DNA of 37,414 bases from positions 10,055-47,468 of the forward strand of contig JAPUEF010000242.1 in the NCBI GenBank assembly GCA_027492655.1, read 5' to 3'. Positions 14,104-34,149 of the stretch are shown here, one piece after another. Each line of letters starts with the position of its first letter. Position 1 is the first letter of the stretch. This DNA is from Alphaproteobacteria bacterium (lineage in GTDB: Bacteria > Pseudomonadota > Alphaproteobacteria > Micropepsales > Micropepsaceae). The notes under the pieces were generated by a model. That model searched no databases. It was not told where the DNA came from and worked only from the letters and a program-made list of their open reading frames with translations. The translations under genes were made by a program, and so were the position numbers.

Positions 14104-14892
14104 TCATGGGCAGCGATGCAGTTCCAGCGGACCATCTGCATAGGGATTGGCCTGCACAAGCCCGCCCTTGCCGTCAGGGGTAAAAGTGTAGTCGTTCACC
14201 TCGAAGGCGCCACCCTCGGTCACGACGAAGGCCTCGCCCTCTTTCACGATTTTCAGCGCATAGTCGGTCGAAACCACCTCGCCGCCGAACGGTCCGCGCA
14301 GCACATGCGGCACCGGCCGGGTCAGCTGGAAGGTGATGCTGTCGGCATCCCTGGCGCAGATGCCGCCTTTGCCGTCCCCGGTCGCCCATGCGCCGTCCAG
14401 CGCCTTCACGATCTCGGCCGGAAACAGCGCGGTGCGTTGCGGGCACGGCTTCATCGTCGGGGTCGGCGCGCCCGGCGACGCCGGCAGCCCGTCATCGCCG
14501 ATCACGATCATGCCGTCCTTCACCCGCTGCACGATCGGTTCGCCCTCCTGCCCCTCTTCGCCAAGCGCCGGATCGTAAACCTCCGACCACAAACGAAGGC
14601 TTCCATCGCTCTCCAGCCGGTAGATCAATGTCGTCCGCCCGATGCCCACCTCATCGGCGACGGTCAGCAGGCCATCCCTGGCGGTGAAGACCGTCAACGG
14701 CGTAAAGCCGCCATCGCTGCGCAGATAAGGCTGGTTGTCGGTATCCACGACGAAATCGACGAGATCCTGCGTGCAGCTCTCACCCGAGGTCCATGATTTG
14801 GCGAGGACCGACTGAAGCGCGGCAGCTTCGCCCGCCGGCACGGATTCGGCGGCGGCGGTCGAGATCAGGAGAGCGGCCAGAAGAAGACGCAT
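14104..14892 (-). CDS. Secreted protein of unknown function (pair member 1)
   Basis: A 262-residue protein starting with a hydrophobic signal peptide (MRLLLAALLISTAAAESVPA), so it is probably periplasmic. The mature part begins AAALQSVLAKSW and holds several cysteines (GESCTQDL, KPCPQR, GGICARD, LHRCP) that could form disulfides. The body is Gly/Asp-rich with beta-strand character. I do not recognise the family. It lies 12 bases after the next gene upstream (14905-15783), which has the same layout and a similar mature N-terminus (ASAVQSLLAGGW), so the two look like diverged duplicates in one transcript. Confidence 0.7.
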   Translation of the reverse strand: MRLLLAALLISTAAAESVPAGEAAALQSVLAKSWTSGESCTQDLVDFVVDTDNQPYLRSDGGFTPLTVFTARDGLLTVADEVGIGRTTLIYRLESDGSLRLWSEVYDPALGEEGQEGEPIVQRVKDGMIVIGDDGLPASPGAPTPTMKPCPQRTALFPAEIVKALDGAWATGDGKGGICARDADSITFQLTRPVPHVLRGPFGGEVVSTDYALKIVKEGEAFVVTEGGAFEVNDYTFTPDGKGGLVQANPYADGPLELHRCP

Positions 14893-14904
14893 GATGGATA
14901 GTCC

Positions 14905-15783
14905 TTACTGCGCGACGACCGTGGTTTCATCGCCCGTCGTACAGCGCAGGTAGTCGCGCTGCCATTCGGGAATCGTCACATGATCGCCCTTTACCTGCAG
15001 GCGGATGGTGGAGGTGTCGCCGCGCGAGCCGTTGGGCGGGATCAGCTCGGTCACGACCGCCTCCCAGCCAAGCCCGGTCGGCGTCAGGCTTTCGAGCGTG
15101 AAGTTCGAAACGTCGTCCAGCGGCGTTTTCACCGTCTCGTCCACCGCCAGCTTCTCGGCGATGGCAGCGCTGTTCCAGCGCGTCAGCTCAAAGCCGAGCG
15201 GCCCGACCATGTCGAGGCGCAGATACTGCGATTCCGGCTCCAGGCAGAGATCCTTGCCCTTCCTGGCGAAGCGCGTGTCGACGAAGCGCACGGGCGGGGC
15301 TTCGGCGCCGCCGCCGAAGAAGGCGAGCGCCTTGGCGCTGCCGTCGATATGGGCGCGATCGGCCGGCTCGTAGCATTTGCGGAACTGCTTGCCTGTCAGA
15401 TCCTGCGCGAACTCGGCCATCTCCAGACCTGAAAGCGTGCCGTCCGCATTCAATTGGAATTTTAGGCCGGGGCCGTCCGGCGAGATGAGTGCGACGGTCT
15501 GACCGTCGCGTGAGGCCTCGACGCCCAGATCGACGCCTTCGCCATCGGCATTGGTCCATTGCACGCGCCCGCCGGTAACGGCGAACTCGAACGTGATGAC
15601 CTCGCCGGACTCGCTCGGACCCTGATCGCAGGCCGGCGGCGCGCTGCCGTCCGGCTCATAGCGCCAGCCCCCGGCGAGCAGCGACTGCACGGCGCTCGCC
15701 TCGACGGGTTGCGGCGCGGCGGTCGTCGCGAGTGCGGAGCCGGACAGCGCGGCGGCGAGAATGAGGGACAGCGTTCTGGACAT
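14905..15783 (-). CDS. Secreted protein of unknown function (pair member 2)
   Basis: A 292-residue protein with a signal peptide (MSRTLSLILAAALSGSALA, cleavage likely at ALATTA). The mature region opens ASAVQSLLAGGW, similar to AAALQSVLAKSW of its downstream neighbour. Four cysteines are present (PACDQG, RKCYEP, DLCLEP, LRCTTG). The rest is predicted beta-rich. The ATG at 15783 has GGAGG eight bases upstream. No family is recognised; periplasmic location is inferred from the signal peptide. Confidence 0.7.
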   Translation of the reverse strand: MSRTLSLILAAALSGSALATTAAPQPVEASAVQSLLAGGWRYEPDGSAPPACDQGPSESGEVITFEFAVTGGRVQWTNADGEGVDLGVEASRDGQTVALISPDGPGLKFQLNADGTLSGLEMAEFAQDLTGKQFRKCYEPADRAHIDGSAKALAFFGGGAEAPPVRFVDTRFARKGKDLCLEPESQYLRLDMVGPLGFELTRWNSAAIAEKLAVDETVKTPLDDVSNFTLESLTPTGLGWEAVVTELIPPNGSRGDTSTIRLQVKGDHVTIPEWQRDYLRCTTGDETTVVAQ

Positions 15784-26177: not shown

Positions 26178-27353
26178 ATGGCCGATCCGCGCCCGCCCGG
26201 TCGGCGCTTCGGCCTCGTCGCGCTTTTCCTCGCTTTCGCCGCCGGCGCGGCCGGCTTCTGGGCCGCCTCCTCGATCTGGAAACCGGCTCCGCCGGGCCCA
26301 GCCGCCGCCCTGCCGGTCGTGGAACTCCACGACATCGCGTTTGCCGATATTCCCGGCTGGGCCGCCGACGACCACGCGGCGGCGCTCGCCGCCTTTCAGA
26401 AAAGCTGCGCCGCCCTGCCCGACGCCGCGCGCTTTCCACAATTCGGCGACGCCGAAGCCTGGAGCCGCGCCTGCGCCGCCGCCGGCACCGCCGATACGGC
26501 CTCGGCCCGCCATTTTTTTGAAACCCGTTTCCAGCCCGCCGCCGTCTCCGGCACCGGCAAAGTCACCGGCTATTACGAGCCGGAACTGACCGGAAGCCGC
26601 GCCAAAAGCGCCGCGTTCCCGGCTCCCGTCTATGCCCGCCCCGCCGATCTCGTCACCGCCGATCCCGAAGGATTCCGCGCGCTCCTTCATGGCGAACGCC
26701 TTGCCGGCAAGCTCGAAAACGGCACCCTGAAGCCCTACGACACCCGCGCCGAAATCGAATCCGGCAGTCTTGATGGTCGGGCCGATGCCATCGTCTATCT
26801 GCCCTCAACCGTCGATGCTTTTTTCCTGCAGATTCAGGGCTCTGGACGGGTGAAACTGCAGGAAGGCGGCTGGCTGCGGCTCAACTATGCGGCGCAGAAC
26901 GGCCATCCCTACAGCGCCATCGGCGCCGCCCTGATCGCCGAAGGCGCGATCCCGCGCGAAAAGATGTCGATGCAGGCGATCCGCGCCTGGCTGGCGGCGA
27001 ATCCGGATCGTGCGGCGGCCGTGATGAACCTCAATGCGTCCTATGTCTTTTTCCGCGCGCTGGCGCTGGACGATCCCGCCCTGGGGCCGCCGGGGGCGGA
27101 GGGCGTACCGCTGATGCCGGGCCGCAGCCTGGCGGTGGATTCGCGGCTCTATCCTTACGGTCTGCCGGTTTTCGTCACCGCGCGGGGGACCGGAGCCGGC
27201 GATATCGCCCGGCTGATGATTGCGCAGGATACCGGCGGCGCGATCCGGGGGGCCGTGCGGGGCGATATTTTCTTCGGCTGGGGCGTTGAGGCCGAGGCGG
27301 CGGCGGGCGTGACGAACGCCGAAGCCGCGTTTGTGATATTGCGCCCGAAATGA
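26178..27353 (+). CDS. mltA: Membrane-bound lytic murein transglycosylase A
   Basis: A 391-residue MltA-type transglycosylase that cleaves murein glycan strands to 1,6-anhydro ends. An N-terminal hydrophobic segment (FGLVALFLAFAAGAAGFWAA) acts as signal or anchor; no lipobox cysteine is evident, unlike E. coli MltA. The MltA domain shows VTGYYEPELTGSRAKS and VDAFFLQIQGSGRVKL, and the C-terminal 3D domain shows LAVDSRLYPYGLPVF and RLMIAQDTGGAIRGAVRGDIFFGWG, with the three Asp that name it. It overlaps the Smr gene by four bases. Confidence 0.94.
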   Translation: MADPRPPGRRFGLVALFLAFAAGAAGFWAASSIWKPAPPGPAAALPVVELHDIAFADIPGWAADDHAAALAAFQKSCAALPDAARFPQFGDAEAWSRACAAAGTADTASARHFFETRFQPAAVSGTGKVTGYYEPELTGSRAKSAAFPAPVYARPADLVTADPEGFRALLHGERLAGKLENGTLKPYDTRAEIESGSLDGRADAIVYLPSTVDAFFLQIQGSGRVKLQEGGWLRLNYAAQNGHPYSAIGAALIAEGAIPREKMSMQAIRAWLAANPDRAAAVMNLNASYVFFRALALDDPALGPPGAEGVPLMPGRSLAVDSRLYPYGLPVFVTARGTGAGDIARLMIAQDTGGAIRGAVRGDIFFGWGVEAEAAAGVTNAEAAFVILRPK

Positions 27354-27919
27354 CGCGCCGGCTGAGCGACCGCGAACGGGAATTGTGGGATCACGTCACT
27401 TCAGGCGTGAAGCCGCGCCGTCTTCCGGCGGCGAAACCTGCAATGGAGCCGCTGCCTGCACCGCAGCCGGATCTGTCCGCCGCCGCGCCCGTCCGCCGCC
27501 GCCGCGTGACGGTGAAACCTGCGCCCGCCGCGCCGCCGGAACCGGCGACGGCCTTTACGCCGGCGCGCGATCCGTTCGCCGCGCCGCAGCTCGACGGCAA
27601 AAGGGCCAGCCGCTTCATGAAGGGCGAGATCCGGATCGAGGGCCGCATCGACCTGCATGGCTTGACGCTGGACATGGCGCACAAGGCGCTGGCCGGGTTC
27701 CTGATGCAGGCGCGGGGGCGCGGGCATCGCATGGTGCTGGTGATCACCGGCAAGGGGGTCGGCAAGGGCGGGGCGTTGAAACGTCTGGTGCCGCTGTGGC
27801 TTTCGGCCCCGCCTTTCGCGGGCCTGATCGCCGGTCTTGCCGCCGCGCAGGCTCGCCATGGCGGCGAGGGTGCGCTCTATCTTTATCTTCGTCGCAAGCG
27901 TGACGAGACGCGGGTGTGA
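27350..27919 (+). CDS. Smr domain protein
   Basis: A 189-residue protein. The first 90 residues are basic and Pro/Ala-rich with little predicted structure. The second half is an Smr domain: RIDLHGLTLDMAHKALAGFL (the LDLHG motif), LVITGKGVGKGGALKRLVPLWL (the TGxG motif) and the ending GGEGALYLYLRRKRDE. Smr domains are nicking endonucleases or RNA-binding nucleases. MltA-Smr adjacency is common in alphaproteobacteria. The start overlaps the mltA stop (ATGA). Confidence 0.92.
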   Translation: MTRRLSDRERELWDHVTSGVKPRRLPAAKPAMEPLPAPQPDLSAAAPVRRRRVTVKPAPAAPPEPATAFTPARDPFAAPQLDGKRASRFMKGEIRIEGRIDLHGLTLDMAHKALAGFLMQARGRGHRMVLVITGKGVGKGGALKRLVPLWLSAPPFAGLIAGLAAAQARHGGEGALYLYLRRKRDETRV

Positions 27920-27995: not shown

Positions 27996-29327
27996 GTGAG
28001 CGCCGATCCCATCGACGAGATCGACATCTGCGCTTCGTATTCGCGCCGCGACACGGCGCGCGTGGTGCCGATCCTCGACGCGCTGAAAAGCCGGGGGGTG
28101 AAGGTCTGGTTCGACAAGAACATCCCCGGCGGCGCGCTGTGGGAGGAGACGATCACCCGCCACATGCGCAAGGCCAAGGCGGTGGTGTTTTTCGCCTCTC
28201 GGGAATCGCTCGCCTCCGACCGCTGTTTCGACGAGGTTTCGGCGGCGCGCACGCTGAAACGGCCGATCATTCCGGTTCTGGTCGATCAGCTGCGGATGCC
28301 CGACGACCTGCCCGACCGGTTGGTGCTGACGCTCCAGACCCGCAACACGGTCGATGCCTTTCCAGGCGCGGATGGCGATCCGGTGGACGCCATCATGCAT
28401 GCGCTGGCGAGCTTCGGGGTGCGCGGCGAACCGAAGATCGCCGGCGCACCGACGCCTCCCCCGCCCCGCCCGGCCGTCGCCGCCCCGCCCGCCCGCAAAC
28501 GCCGCCCGCTGCTGCTGGTCGGCATCGCGGCGGGCGTCGTGCTGGCCGCCGCCGTGGGCGTTCTGGCGATGACCGGCACGTTCGGCGGCGGGCTGTCTTC
28601 CGCCAAGCTCGATATTCCCGCCGACAAATGGTGCACCGCCTCGGCTCCCGCCCTGCTGGCCAACGCCGAGGCGCAGATCGGGATCGAACGGCTGAAGACG
28701 ATGGCCGAGCAAGGCGACCGCGACGCGCAGACGCTGCACTGCCTTTCCGCCAACAAGGCCTGTTCGGGCGGCGGTAATCCCCAGACTCTCTCCGCCGCCT
28801 ATGCCTCGTGCGAGGCGGCGGGCGCGAAGGGCAGCTGGCGCGCTGTCTTCAATCAGGGCTGGCTGAAGCAGCGCGGCTGCGGCGTGGCGCTGGACGGCAA
28901 GGGCGCGGCCCAGGCGGTCATGCGCGCGGCGGAGGGCGGCTGCGCCATCGCGCAGTTCTATCTCGGCACGCTCTACGAGGACGGCGAATTGATCGACTAC
29001 GATCAGGGGCTGTCCATCAAATGGCTGACCGAGGCCGCCAACCAGAATTACCCCCCGGCGATGAACCGGCTGGGCGCGGCCTATGCTCTGGGGCGCGGCG
29101 TCCCGGAAGACGATGCGCGCGGCACCGACTACTACCGCCGCGCCGCCGATCTGGGCGATGCCCGCGCCATGCTGAACTATGCCCGGGCGCTGGAGATGGG
29201 TTCGGGCACCGAAAAGAACACCGGCGCAGCGATCGCCTATTACCGCCGCGCCGCCGCCCAGAGCGACGACGCCGAAATCCGCCAGCTCGCGCTCGATTCG
29301 CTGAAACGCCTGGGCGTCAGCCCCTGA
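27996..29327 (+). CDS. TIR-transmembrane-Sel1 repeat protein
   Basis: A 443-residue protein with three parts. Residues 8-140 are a TIR domain: EIDICASYSRRD (box 1), GVKVWFDKNIPGGALWEETI, KAVVFFASRESLASDRCFDEV and RPIIPVLVD. Glu80 in CFDEV aligns with the catalytic glutamate of NAD-cleaving TIRs such as SARM1, so NADase activity is possible. A Pro/Ala linker with ARKRR precedes one membrane segment (171-192). The rest (about 212-440) contains at least three Sel1-like repeats (MNRLGAAYALGRGVPEDD, DLGDARAMLNYARALEMGSG). The positive residues before the membrane segment put TIR in the cytoplasm and the repeats in the periplasm. GTG 27996 is chosen; no ATG lies in frame between it and the upstream Smr gene. 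Seven bases separate it from the next gene. Confidence 0.88.
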   Translation: MSADPIDEIDICASYSRRDTARVVPILDALKSRGVKVWFDKNIPGGALWEETITRHMRKAKAVVFFASRESLASDRCFDEVSAARTLKRPIIPVLVDQLRMPDDLPDRLVLTLQTRNTVDAFPGADGDPVDAIMHALASFGVRGEPKIAGAPTPPPPRPAVAAPPARKRRPLLLVGIAAGVVLAAAVGVLAMTGTFGGGLSSAKLDIPADKWCTASAPALLANAEAQIGIERLKTMAEQGDRDAQTLHCLSANKACSGGGNPQTLSAAYASCEAAGAKGSWRAVFNQGWLKQRGCGVALDGKGAAQAVMRAAEGGCAIAQFYLGTLYEDGELIDYDQGLSIKWLTEAANQNYPPAMNRLGAAYALGRGVPEDDARGTDYYRRAADLGDARAMLNYARALEMGSGTEKNTGAAIAYYRRAAAQSDDAEIRQLALDSLKRLGVSP

Positions 29328-29334
29328 GACAGAC

Positions 29335-30933
29335 ATGACCACGACACTTGAAAAAGGCGCGGCCGTCGCCGCGCTCTTCGCTGCAAATGACGACCGCGCC
29401 GCGCGCCTGATCGACGCTCTGCGGGCCGAGGGCGTGAGACTGGCCGACGGCGGGGCGGCGGATGCGACGATCCTCTTCGCGTCGCACGCCGCGCTGGCTT
29501 CGGACGACATCGTGCGCGCCGTTCTCGCCGCCCCGGCGCAGCAGCGCCTTGTCGTCCTGACCGAAAGACTGGATCTGCCGGGCGATCTGCCCGAGGCCCT
29601 GAAGGGCGTCATCGATCCCGCCGCCGCGATCCCCGCCTGGCGCGAGGACGAGCCCGAAACGCGCCGCCGTATCCTCGCGGCGCTGATCGGTTTCGGCGCG
29701 GCCGGGGCCGGCGTCGAGGCGGCGCAGGGCGCGTCGCTGCAGACCGAAGCCGTCAGCCGCGAGACCGCGCAGGCAAGCCTCAGCTCGTCGGCGCGCAGCG
29801 TGCCGGTCGATCCGATGGCCAAGGTCACGGCCTCGGTGGTGAAGACCTCGTCGCGCCGCGTGCGGCTGCTCGCCTATGGCGGGGCCGCCGCAGCGAGCGT
29901 GCTGGTCGTCGGCGCGGTCGTCTTCATGCAGGCAGGCGGCGACAGGGCGCGGGGTTCCTCAAGCGCTGCGGGCGAAGGCGCGAAGACCGCCAGCGCCGCG
30001 CCGTCGCGGCCGCAAGAACCCGGCGCGCCGCCCGCCCCGACTCCGGCGGCGATCGAAACCGGCGGCGCGCGCGTCACGCTGGCTCAGCCGTCCTATCCGG
30101 TCGGACGGGTCATTCCCGTTCATGTCCGCGACATGCCGGGCCACCAGCAGGATTACGTCGCCATCGCCGCCAAGGGGTCGCCGGGATATGGCGAGATCCG
30201 CTACGAATATCTGAGGGGCGCGAAAAACGCCGATCTGGTGCTGCGCGGCGTGATGAAGCCGGGCGAATACGAAGTGCGGCTGTTTTTCGGCAACGACACC
30301 GACCGCAACAAGTCCGAGACGATCCGTTACGCCATCCCGCTGATCATCGCGCCCGCCGATCCGGTGACGCTGGAGGTGGAGGGCGGCGCGACGCTGACCG
30401 AGGGCCGCCCGATCAACGTGCATTATGCCGGGCTGCCCGAGAACCAGCGTGACTGGGTCGCGCTGTCCGAGGCGGGCAGCGAGGACGGCGCCTATATCTC
30501 GTATGTCTACAGCAACGGCGCGGCCGCCGGCATCGCCCGGCTGCCCGGTGCGACGAAGCCCGGCAAGTACGAGATCCGGGTCTATTTCGACGACATCGCC
30601 TCCGACCGCACGGTGCAGGCGCGCCTGCCGCTGGACGTGGCGCCCGCCCCGCCGGTGAACCTGCAGCTCGACGCCAACGCCTATGCGCCCGACGCCCCGA
30701 TCATCGTCAACTTCAACTCTATGCCGGGCAACCAGAAGGACTGGATCGCCCTGGCCCGGGCCGGCGACGAGGGCTATCTGAACTACGAATATACCGACGG
30801 CGCGAGCTCGGGGACGCTGACGATCCGCGGCCCGTCCGAGCCCGGCCGCTATGAAATCCGCGCCTATTTCGACGATGCGACCGGCGATCGGACCGTCCGG
30901 GCGACGGCCTCGTTCGAGGTGACATCTCAATAA
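29335..30933 (+). CDS. Degenerate TIR-transmembrane protein with three beta-sandwich repeats
   Basis: A 532-residue protein in tandem with the TIR-Sel1 gene. Residues 10-115 align with its neighbour's TIR domain (RLIDALRAEGVRL with PILDALKSRGVKV; TILFASHAALASDD with VVFFASRESLASDR; LDLPGDLPEAL with LRMPDDLPDRL), but the segment holding WFDKNIPGG is missing and the catalytic Glu is replaced by Ala62. One membrane segment follows at 178-200 after RRVR, so the N-terminus is inside. The outside part has three repeats (about 244-340, 343-436, 440-532), each with a DWxALxxAG..G.xxYxY core and a KPGxYEIRxYFDD end, like Ig-type beta-sandwich domains. I know no named family for the repeat. ATG at 29335. 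Confidence 0.85.
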   Translation: MTTTLEKGAAVAALFAANDDRAARLIDALRAEGVRLADGGAADATILFASHAALASDDIVRAVLAAPAQQRLVVLTERLDLPGDLPEALKGVIDPAAAIPAWREDEPETRRRILAALIGFGAAGAGVEAAQGASLQTEAVSRETAQASLSSSARSVPVDPMAKVTASVVKTSSRRVRLLAYGGAAAASVLVVGAVVFMQAGGDRARGSSSAAGEGAKTASAAPSRPQEPGAPPAPTPAAIETGGARVTLAQPSYPVGRVIPVHVRDMPGHQQDYVAIAAKGSPGYGEIRYEYLRGAKNADLVLRGVMKPGEYEVRLFFGNDTDRNKSETIRYAIPLIIAPADPVTLEVEGGATLTEGRPINVHYAGLPENQRDWVALSEAGSEDGAYISYVYSNGAAAGIARLPGATKPGKYEIRVYFDDIASDRTVQARLPLDVAPAPPVNLQLDANAYAPDAPIIVNFNSMPGNQKDWIALARAGDEGYLNYEYTDGASSGTLTIRGPSEPGRYEIRAYFDDATGDRTVRATASFEVTSQ

Positions 30934-33193: not shown

Positions 33194-33589
33194 TCAATCC
33201 TCGACGCGGTGCGAGGCGATGCCTTCGGGCGTTGTGACGGTGTCCGCGTCCACCACCGTCAGCTCGATCGTGTGGGCGTCCTCGCCCTTGGGGGTCAGCG
33301 TAACGCGGCAGGTGTCGGGCGATGCGCCGGGGCCGGCGTCCCACATGCCTTCGCGTTTCAGATCCTGCGGCGGCAGGCCTTCGACCTCGGCATGCATGGT
33401 CTGGAAGAAGCTGCCATCGACGGCGTAGCTGGAGCGCGCCTTGAGGGTCGTCTTCTTGCCGTCCATCTCGCGCGCCGCTTCCGTGGACCACGAGCCGGTC
33501 AGGAAGGTGCGGCAGCTGGCGTTGTCGAAGGCAGCGGCGGCGGGCGCGAATGACAGCGCGGCCAGCAGGACGGCGGTGGAAACTTTCAT
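33194..33589 (-). CDS. Small secreted protein of unknown function (pair member A)
   Basis: A 131-residue protein with a signal peptide (MKVSTAVLLAALSFAPAAAA) and mature start FDNASCRTFLTGSW. The neighbour at 33615-34040 shares this start (FDNTTCKAFLAGTW) and a second block (GMWDAGPGASPDTCRVTL with GTWDAAAGPSTDSCNASV), so they are paralogues. Two conserved cysteines may pair. Repeated GxW blocks and short strands suggest a small beta-barrel like lipocalin-type proteins; this is a guess. GGGGAG lies upstream of ATG 33589. No family is recognised. Confidence 0.75.
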   Translation of the reverse strand: MKVSTAVLLAALSFAPAAAAFDNASCRTFLTGSWSTEAAREMDGKKTTLKARSSYAVDGSFFQTMHAEVEGLPPQDLKREGMWDAGPGASPDTCRVTLTPKGEDAHTIELTVVDADTVTTPEGIASHRVED

Positions 33590-33614
33590 GCCGGCGCTCC
33601 CCGCGCTGATCGCG

Positions 33615-34040
33615 TCAGGGCGCGATGGAGGCGGAGCGGACGCCGATGGCCGGGACACGGCGGGCGGTGGCCCCGTCTTCGGTCCGCACCGTGTTGGTGT
33701 CGAGCACGATCAGCACGGTGTTCATCTGGTCGCGGCCGCCGGTGGCGACGCTGGCGTTGCAGCTGTCGGTGGACGGACCGGCGGCGGCGTCCCAGGTGCC
33801 GGCGATGGTCTGCACTTCCGGGTCGAGGCCCTGCGGCGCGATATTGATGGTGGCCGAGAAATCGCCATCGGCGGCATAGACGGCGCGGGTGGCGATGGTT
33901 CCGGGACGGCCGTTGAGGTCGGTCGCGACGCTCATGTCCCAGGTGCCGGCGAGGAACGCCTTGCAGGTCGTGTTGTCGAACGCGGACGCCGGGGTGGCGA
34001 ACAGGGCGGCGACGCCGAGAAGGGCGAGGCTGCGGATCAT
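33615..34040 (-). CDS. Small secreted protein of unknown function (pair member B)
   Basis: A 141-residue protein with a signal peptide (MIRSLALLGVAALFATPASA) followed by FDNTTCKAFLAGTWDM. It shares block structure with the downstream gene: FDN..C..FL.G.W, Y..DG.F, G.WDA..G.S.D.C, and a D..TV.T..G....RVP end. Cysteines at the same two places suggest one disulfide. The pair is transcribed together (25 bases between them), away from the ggt gene's direction of origin, and its own promoter is probably in the 109-base gap after ggt. Confidence 0.75.
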   Translation of the reverse strand: MIRSLALLGVAALFATPASAFDNTTCKAFLAGTWDMSVATDLNGRPGTIATRAVYAADGDFSATINIAPQGLDPEVQTIAGTWDAAAGPSTDSCNASVATGGRDQMNTVLIVLDTNTVRTEDGATARRVPAIGVRSASIAP

Positions 34041-34149
34041 GGCGGGGTGTCCTCTTGTCATGGTCCTTGAAGCAGGCGGGCTTATAGCCTCCGGCCCCAC
34101 CCCCTGTCAGCCCCGCGAGGCCTGACGTTACGGCAATTTAAGAGAGGCG

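Follow-up and report, generated by a model that had tools for sequence, protein, structure and literature searches.

A tandem pair of predicted membrane TIR proteins with different repeat ectodomains, and loss of one TIR within an alphaproteobacterial genus

To our knowledge, the bacterial TIR proteins whose mechanisms have been worked out are mostly intracellular defence proteins. Prokaryotic TIR groups as a whole are diverse in architecture (survey, PMC7075850). The solved TIR closest by sequence to the protein described below as T1 is Cat1 (E 1.3e-6; profile E 9.4e-10). The active site of Cat1 is made by two stacked TIRs; residues S7, D33, S68 and E74 line the NADase pocket formed between them, and D33, S68 and E74 have been probed by mutation (PMC12162218). 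The Trp of the WxxxE motif is required in AbTir both for activity and for production of 2'cADPR, but is dispensable in TcpC, where the W240 mutant stays active (PMC11374754). Members of the IL-1R family are single-pass heterodimers with Ig-like ectodomains (PMC7075850). Our search of the literature, with subscription journals mostly outside its reach, returned no description of TIR-Sel1 membrane proteins or of catalytically inactive bacterial TIR partners.

The window (the whole stretch of DNA that was analysed; 37,414 nucleotides of an uncultured alphaproteobacterium) carries two adjacent genes, T1 and T2, that were singled out in an earlier note. As stated there, the genes lie seven bases apart: T1 opens with a GTG codon (27996), and seven bases separate its stop from the ATG start of T2. 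The features of the locus are as follows.

26178–27919, + strand: mltA and smr, conserved upstream neighbours (Pfam, neighbourhood comparison)
27996–29327, + strand: T1, a TIR – single membrane helix – Sel1-repeat protein of 443 aa (ORF, Pfam, AlphaFold, Foldseek)
28020–28409, + strand: T1 TIR domain, residues 9–138, predicted cytosolic by the positive-inside rule (Pfam, alignment, AlphaFold, charge)
28113–28115, + strand: T1 Asp40, at the position of Cat1 D33 in the NADase pocket (phmmer alignment; PMC12162218)
28233–28235, + strand: T1 Glu80, candidate catalytic Glu, at the position of Cat1 E74 (alignment; PMC12162218)
28509–28565, + strand: T1 membrane helix, residues 172–190, with ARKRRP just before it (hydropathy and charge count)
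28611–29324, + strand: T1 Sel1 solenoid, residues 206–443, predicted periplasmic (Pfam, AlphaFold, Foldseek, Cys)
29335–30933, + strand: T2, a degenerate TIR – membrane helix – three beta-sandwich repeat protein of 532 aa (ORF, AlphaFold)
29335–29703, + strand: T2 decayed TIR, residues 1–123 (alignment to intact T2 TIRs)
29776–29850, + strand: T2 cytosolic juxtamembrane stretch, residues 148–172, SLSSSARSVPVDPMAKVTASVVKTS (comparison with G004, the nearest relative of this genome)
29866–29922, + strand: T2 membrane helix, residues 178–196 (hydropathy and charge count)
30067–30921, + strand: T2 three beta-sandwich repeats, about residues 245–340, 341–437 and 438–529, predicted periplasmic (AlphaFold strands)

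Pfam, AlphaFold and hydropathy agree on the plan that had been proposed for both proteins, namely a TIR, a membrane helix and outside repeats. T1 exceeds the Pfam cut-offs for TIR_2 (PF13676; 72.2 bits, cut-off 28) and Sel1 (PF08238; 76.1 bits, cut-off 30.7). Its AlphaFold model (mean pLDDT 79.5) comprises (i) TIR strands and helices at residues 9–138 (block pLDDT 65–89), (ii) a low-confidence linker, and (iii) a confident solenoid. The best Foldseek matches of T1 are Sel1 proteins, including HcpC, with the SPARTA and SARM1 TIRs also matched; HcpC is a cysteine-rich Sel1 protein. The Sel1 part of T1 itself contains six cysteines (213, 249, 256, 272, 295 and 316). All six orthologs have exactly six ectodomain cysteines, every one of them invariant, which fits a periplasmic, disulfide-stabilised solenoid.

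No Pfam match above cut-off, TIR_2 (PF13676) included, is obtained for the T2 of the window. Its N-terminus can be aligned to intact TIRs, and the AlphaFold model (mean pLDDT 71.8) retains part of the TIR fold as a shortened remnant, together with three beta-sandwich repeats. Foldseek matches to the latter are generic sandwiches (alpha-2-macroglobulin, FnIII; TMq 0.25 or less) that say little about family, and a family assignment on this basis was dropped. Secreted-type VWA proteins and phosphodiesterase-like proteins also contain repeats akin to those of T2, as does a family of large proteins encoded near a multi-pass membrane protein gene in several genomes of the genus (L032:2819-5557 and L033:3543-5774 in this genome; L037, L038 and L039). 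In one relative, G003 (L030:7713-9632), T2 extends into an additional C-terminal tail that is acidic and proline-rich, contains four cysteines and has no counterpart in the T2 of the window.

Each protein has a single hydrophobic stretch (about residues 169–200 in T1 and 176–202 in T2). The 15 residues on its TIR side hold five positive and no negative charges in both cases, in agreement with the earlier description; an excess of positive charge precedes the helix in the orthologs too, although it is weaker in some. We strongly infer that both proteins have the TIR inside the cell and the repeats in the periplasm.

Comparison of the TIR domains revealed two points of interest. Firstly, the alignment with Cat1 (phmmer) places T1 residues S14, D40, S74 and E80 opposite Cat1 S7, D33, S68 and E74, and all four are invariant across the nine intact TIRs. 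Retention of Glu80 in T1 and its loss from T2, both noted previously, are borne out by the alignments: in the T2 of the window, the residue aligned to the catalytic Glu is not Glu, the pocket Asp is lost, and a BB-loop/alpha-B segment near residues 36–43, including Trp-Phe-Asp-Lys, is deleted relative to intact T2 TIRs. Secondly, T1 departs from the reference proteins at two positions: Cat1 N10 is unmatched (Arg17 in T1), and the WxxxE Trp is replaced by Arg76, which is invariant in 9/9 intact TIRs. The effect of Arg76 is uncertain, because the TcpC W240 mutant remains active. Given that the Trp is needed in AbTir but not in TcpC, NAD+ cleavage by T1 is plausible and a cyclic product less so; the Arg makes production of cyclic ADPR doubtful. 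Judged by its residues, the T1 TIR is probably NADase-competent, a conclusion in which we place moderate confidence.

The locus differs from each of the described systems. Cat1 forms filaments and senses cyclic oligoadenylates through a CARF domain, whereas T1 is membrane-bound, carries Sel1 repeats and has the W-to-R change in WxxxE. As had been suspected, the likeness to Thoeris, TIR-STING and TIR-SAVED goes no further than the generic TIR fold. PADLOC matches to ThsB are weak (E 1.7e-4) and cover part of the TIR only, and there is no ThsA among the ten neighbouring genes. Neither STING nor SAVED is fused to these TIRs, which are followed by Sel1 or beta-sandwich repeats; the SAVED_TIR match spans the TIR alone. 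IL-1R and Toll-like receptors share with T1 and T2 a single membrane pass, a cytosolic TIR and a solenoid or Ig-like sandwich ectodomain. In T1 and T2, however, the order is reversed (the TIR is N-terminal), the repeat families are others, no LRR or Ig match is found in the ectodomains and there is no TLR-type homology, so that the resemblance is one of analogy only.

Proteins with a TIR, a helix and repeats are common in Alphaproteobacteria (TIR-helix-PD40 propeller, TIR-helix-TPR and others). Like T1, they have an N-terminal TIR_2 domain, a helix near residue 150–200 and C-terminal repeats. The TIRs of the examples compared are only about 24–33% identical to that of T1, their ectodomains differ from those of T1 and T2, and no T2-like partner was seen. 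What is unusual in T1/T2 is that a duplicated TIR is joined, within one operon, to two different ectodomains, and that the loss of one TIR is on record. A separate tandem arrangement is found at L182:4060-10594 (G062:C329), where three TIR – membrane helix – PD40 propeller genes of ~720–730 aa lie head to tail with 1-bp overlaps; the first two TIRs are 91% identical, and PD40 was checked by Pfam in the first only.

Every one of the five genomes of the genus (5/5) has T1 and T2 together, in the same order and place, the two genes being either about 7 bp apart or overlapping by 4 bp; this shared order indicates that the pairing is not due to chance. The conserved series is aroE-coaE-dnaQ-secB-tim44-mltA-smr-T1-T2, with ggt and hslU nearby. 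Within the genus, identity to the window protein is 62–79% for T1 and 35–57% for T2. In Alphaproteobacteria bacterium SO-S41 (AP024629, a complete genome record), both members of the pair have an intact TIR. In one genome of a second genus of the family (G006), T1 follows smr with no T2 adjoining, and no T2 was found in the 1.8 kb following T1 on the contig; T1 can therefore probably act without T2.

The TIRs of T1 and intact T2 are 55–66% identical to one another, against 24–37% to the other alphaproteobacterial TIRs compared. In a tree of the TIRs (decayed rows left out; short alignment, long outgroup branches), the T1 proteins of the genus group with that of G006 to the exclusion of T2 (96/99). 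That grouping speaks against a duplication confined to this genus. The duplication of the TIR probably predates the split between the two genera, with G006 now lacking T2, a point that we hold with moderate confidence.

The earlier note had read the pair as an active TIR joined by design to a catalytically dead one. This reading does not hold. The T2 proteins of G001, G002 and G003 have a complete TIR with the Glu, scoring 67–74 bits to TIR_2 (above cut-off), and loss of the TIR is limited to this genome (G000) and its nearest relative, G004 (18.9 bits, below cut-off). With the T2 TIR intact in three of the four congeneric genomes, the partner lost its TIR late, and a dead TIR is no part of the family plan. 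The G000 and G004 proteins both lack WFDKDIPGGALWEEIIARKYR, each with a net deficit of 17 residues, which makes a shared loss most likely.

The constraint on T2 changed with the state of its TIR. Among G001–G003, the TIR is the most conserved segment of T2 (76–80% identity, dN 0.13–0.17; repeats 45–55%). Between G000 and G004 it is the least conserved (32.5% identity, dN 0.77), while the repeats are 68.4% identical (dN 0.27, dS 0.80), the helix is also conserved, and residues 148–172 are 84% identical, against about 36% in the preceding stretch and in the one that follows the helix. This juxtamembrane segment is absent from T2 proteins with an intact TIR and from elsewhere in these genomes; in the two sequences that have it, it is a candidate docking peptide. 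It could be supposed that T2 in this lineage is a relic in decay, without its TIR, drifting in its remaining parts and no longer a functional partner of T1, as the identity of its TIR (down to 33% between G000 and G004, with the shared deletion) and its low identity overall might suggest. The constraint on repeats and juxtamembrane stretch, together with a frame that is open over 532 codons with a strong GC3 bias (0.86), makes a relic very improbable. Conservation of the repeats and of residues 148–172 alongside a decayed TIR indicates instead that T2 has been kept for something besides its TIR.

For T1, the TIR is the slowest segment (80–87% identity across pairs, 85% between G000 and G004); its unchanged pace in the latter two seems independent of a T2 TIR. 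In T1 and in intact T2, the ectodomains evolve faster than the TIR, as in a receptor with a fixed output and a diverging input. The architecture, the common origin of the TIRs, the synteny, the late loss and the changed constraint are, at the level of sequence, documented by these comparisons.

A lack of co-conservation beyond close relatives had been named in the earlier note as evidence against its reading, and such a lack is seen in part: the pair is constant within the genus, T1 alone reaches a second one, and nothing T1-like is found elsewhere. Among the 96 genomes of the family, intact TIRs score at least 250 bits with the TIR profile and the next best 56 bits; the other 90 family genomes have no T1-like TIR. 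None was found in samples of the class (385 genomes; at most 72 bits) or phylum (398 genomes; at most 63 bits). A scan of an 84,980-species collection with the TIR alignment as query returned five loci only, four of them from relatives within the genus (SO-S41 and three MAGs) and the fifth from UBA2784; T2 alone as query against genome contigs gave no related loci.

This distribution bears on a possible role in phage defence, in which perturbation of the envelope at phage entry or exit would trigger NAD+ depletion by the TIR (abortive infection). NADases of the TIR type often serve as defence effectors (Cat1, PMC12162218), Foldseek matches T1 to SPARTA TIRs among others, and tandem duplication with fast-diverging ectodomains is compatible with an arms race. 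The setting is not a defence island, a possibility raised earlier for checking, but one of housekeeping genes: defence searches of the ten neighbours gave only generic matches to a DnaQ-type exonuclease, SecB and HslU. Presence in the genus is fixed in synteny and lacks the patchiness expected of a mobile defence system; none of 72,556 plasmids carries a T1-like TIR, and phages yielded just one generic TIR (32%). The locus is narrow in distribution and vertically inherited, and phage defence, while possible, is without support from location, mobility or neighbours; we rate it as quite improbable.

The main rival to receptor-like signalling is a regulator of envelope homeostasis, whose periplasmic Sel1 solenoid would bind a cell-wall enzyme or sensor, the TIR being a mere cytosolic interaction scaffold. 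Two periplasmic Sel1-like solenoids act by protein binding in this manner: IltA (PA3978) directly inhibits the lytic transglycosylase MltF (PMC10746161), and ExoR represses the sensor kinase ChvG (PMC3460628). Unlike T1, both are soluble and have neither TIR nor membrane helix. T1 lies one gene downstream of the gene for murein transglycosylase A, and a fixed housekeeping locus with vertical inheritance fits a house function; the missing WxxxE Trp also counts in favour of this rival. However, mltA-smr is found throughout the family in the absence of T1/T2 (11 genomes of other genera), so that the link to mltA may be one of position only; a functional tie on neighbourhood grounds was set aside as weak. 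The invariant pocket (S14, D40, S74, E80) also seems to exceed the needs of a scaffold. On balance, we consider an envelope regulator unlikely.

The reading that we prefer, and to which we give about even chances, is that T1 and T2 form a lineage-specific, periplasm-facing, receptor-like pair of single-pass inner-membrane proteins with a TIR NADase output, T2 in this genome probably serving as co-receptor or anchor. Tandem duplication of a TIR-helix unit would have produced copies bearing different periplasmic modules (a Sel1 solenoid in one, beta-sandwich repeats in the other), which most likely recognise a ligand or protein of the envelope or surface, or one another. Clustering would gather the cytosolic TIRs, upon which the T1 TIR would cleave NAD+ as in Cat1; both clustering as the trigger and T1–T2 contact are what we infer from the architecture. 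Ancestrally, both partners may have been able to cleave NAD+ on clustering. In the branch of this genome, the T2 TIR decayed after the 17-residue deletion; T2 kept its ectodomain, helix and juxtamembrane peptide, hence the probable role as co-receptor or anchor for T1. A closer parallel to IL-1R/TLR pairs, with solenoid and Ig-like sandwich receptors from one TIR duplication signalling across the inner membrane by assembly of a TIR NADase and one branch having a TIR-less co-receptor that docks via its juxtamembrane peptide, is distinctly unlikely.

A conserved pair with TIRs beneath periplasmic ectodomains would open transmembrane TIR signalling to experiment in bacteria. Close relatives within the genus provide a natural experiment, with the partner TIR intact in some and lost in others and T1 unchanged, so that one can ask directly what the second TIR contributes.

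Several further arrangements were observed. A three-gene TIR operon is conserved in another genus (L178:3900-6593, G217:C15; L179:3118-5768, G320:C504); its middle TIR looks complete, and in the two flanking ones the BB-loop region is shortened and membrane helices are present. This is an independent instance of a full TIR adjoining degenerate ones. The genome of the window also encodes a 958-aa TIR – Ser/Thr kinase – CAP-domain fusion (L034:2256-5132, G000:C294). Within the window, a tandem pair of small proteins that look alike and have signal-peptide-like starts is encoded at 33194–34100 (− strand; no Pfam match), and another tandem pair of small proteins with such starts lies at 14104–15783 (− strand).
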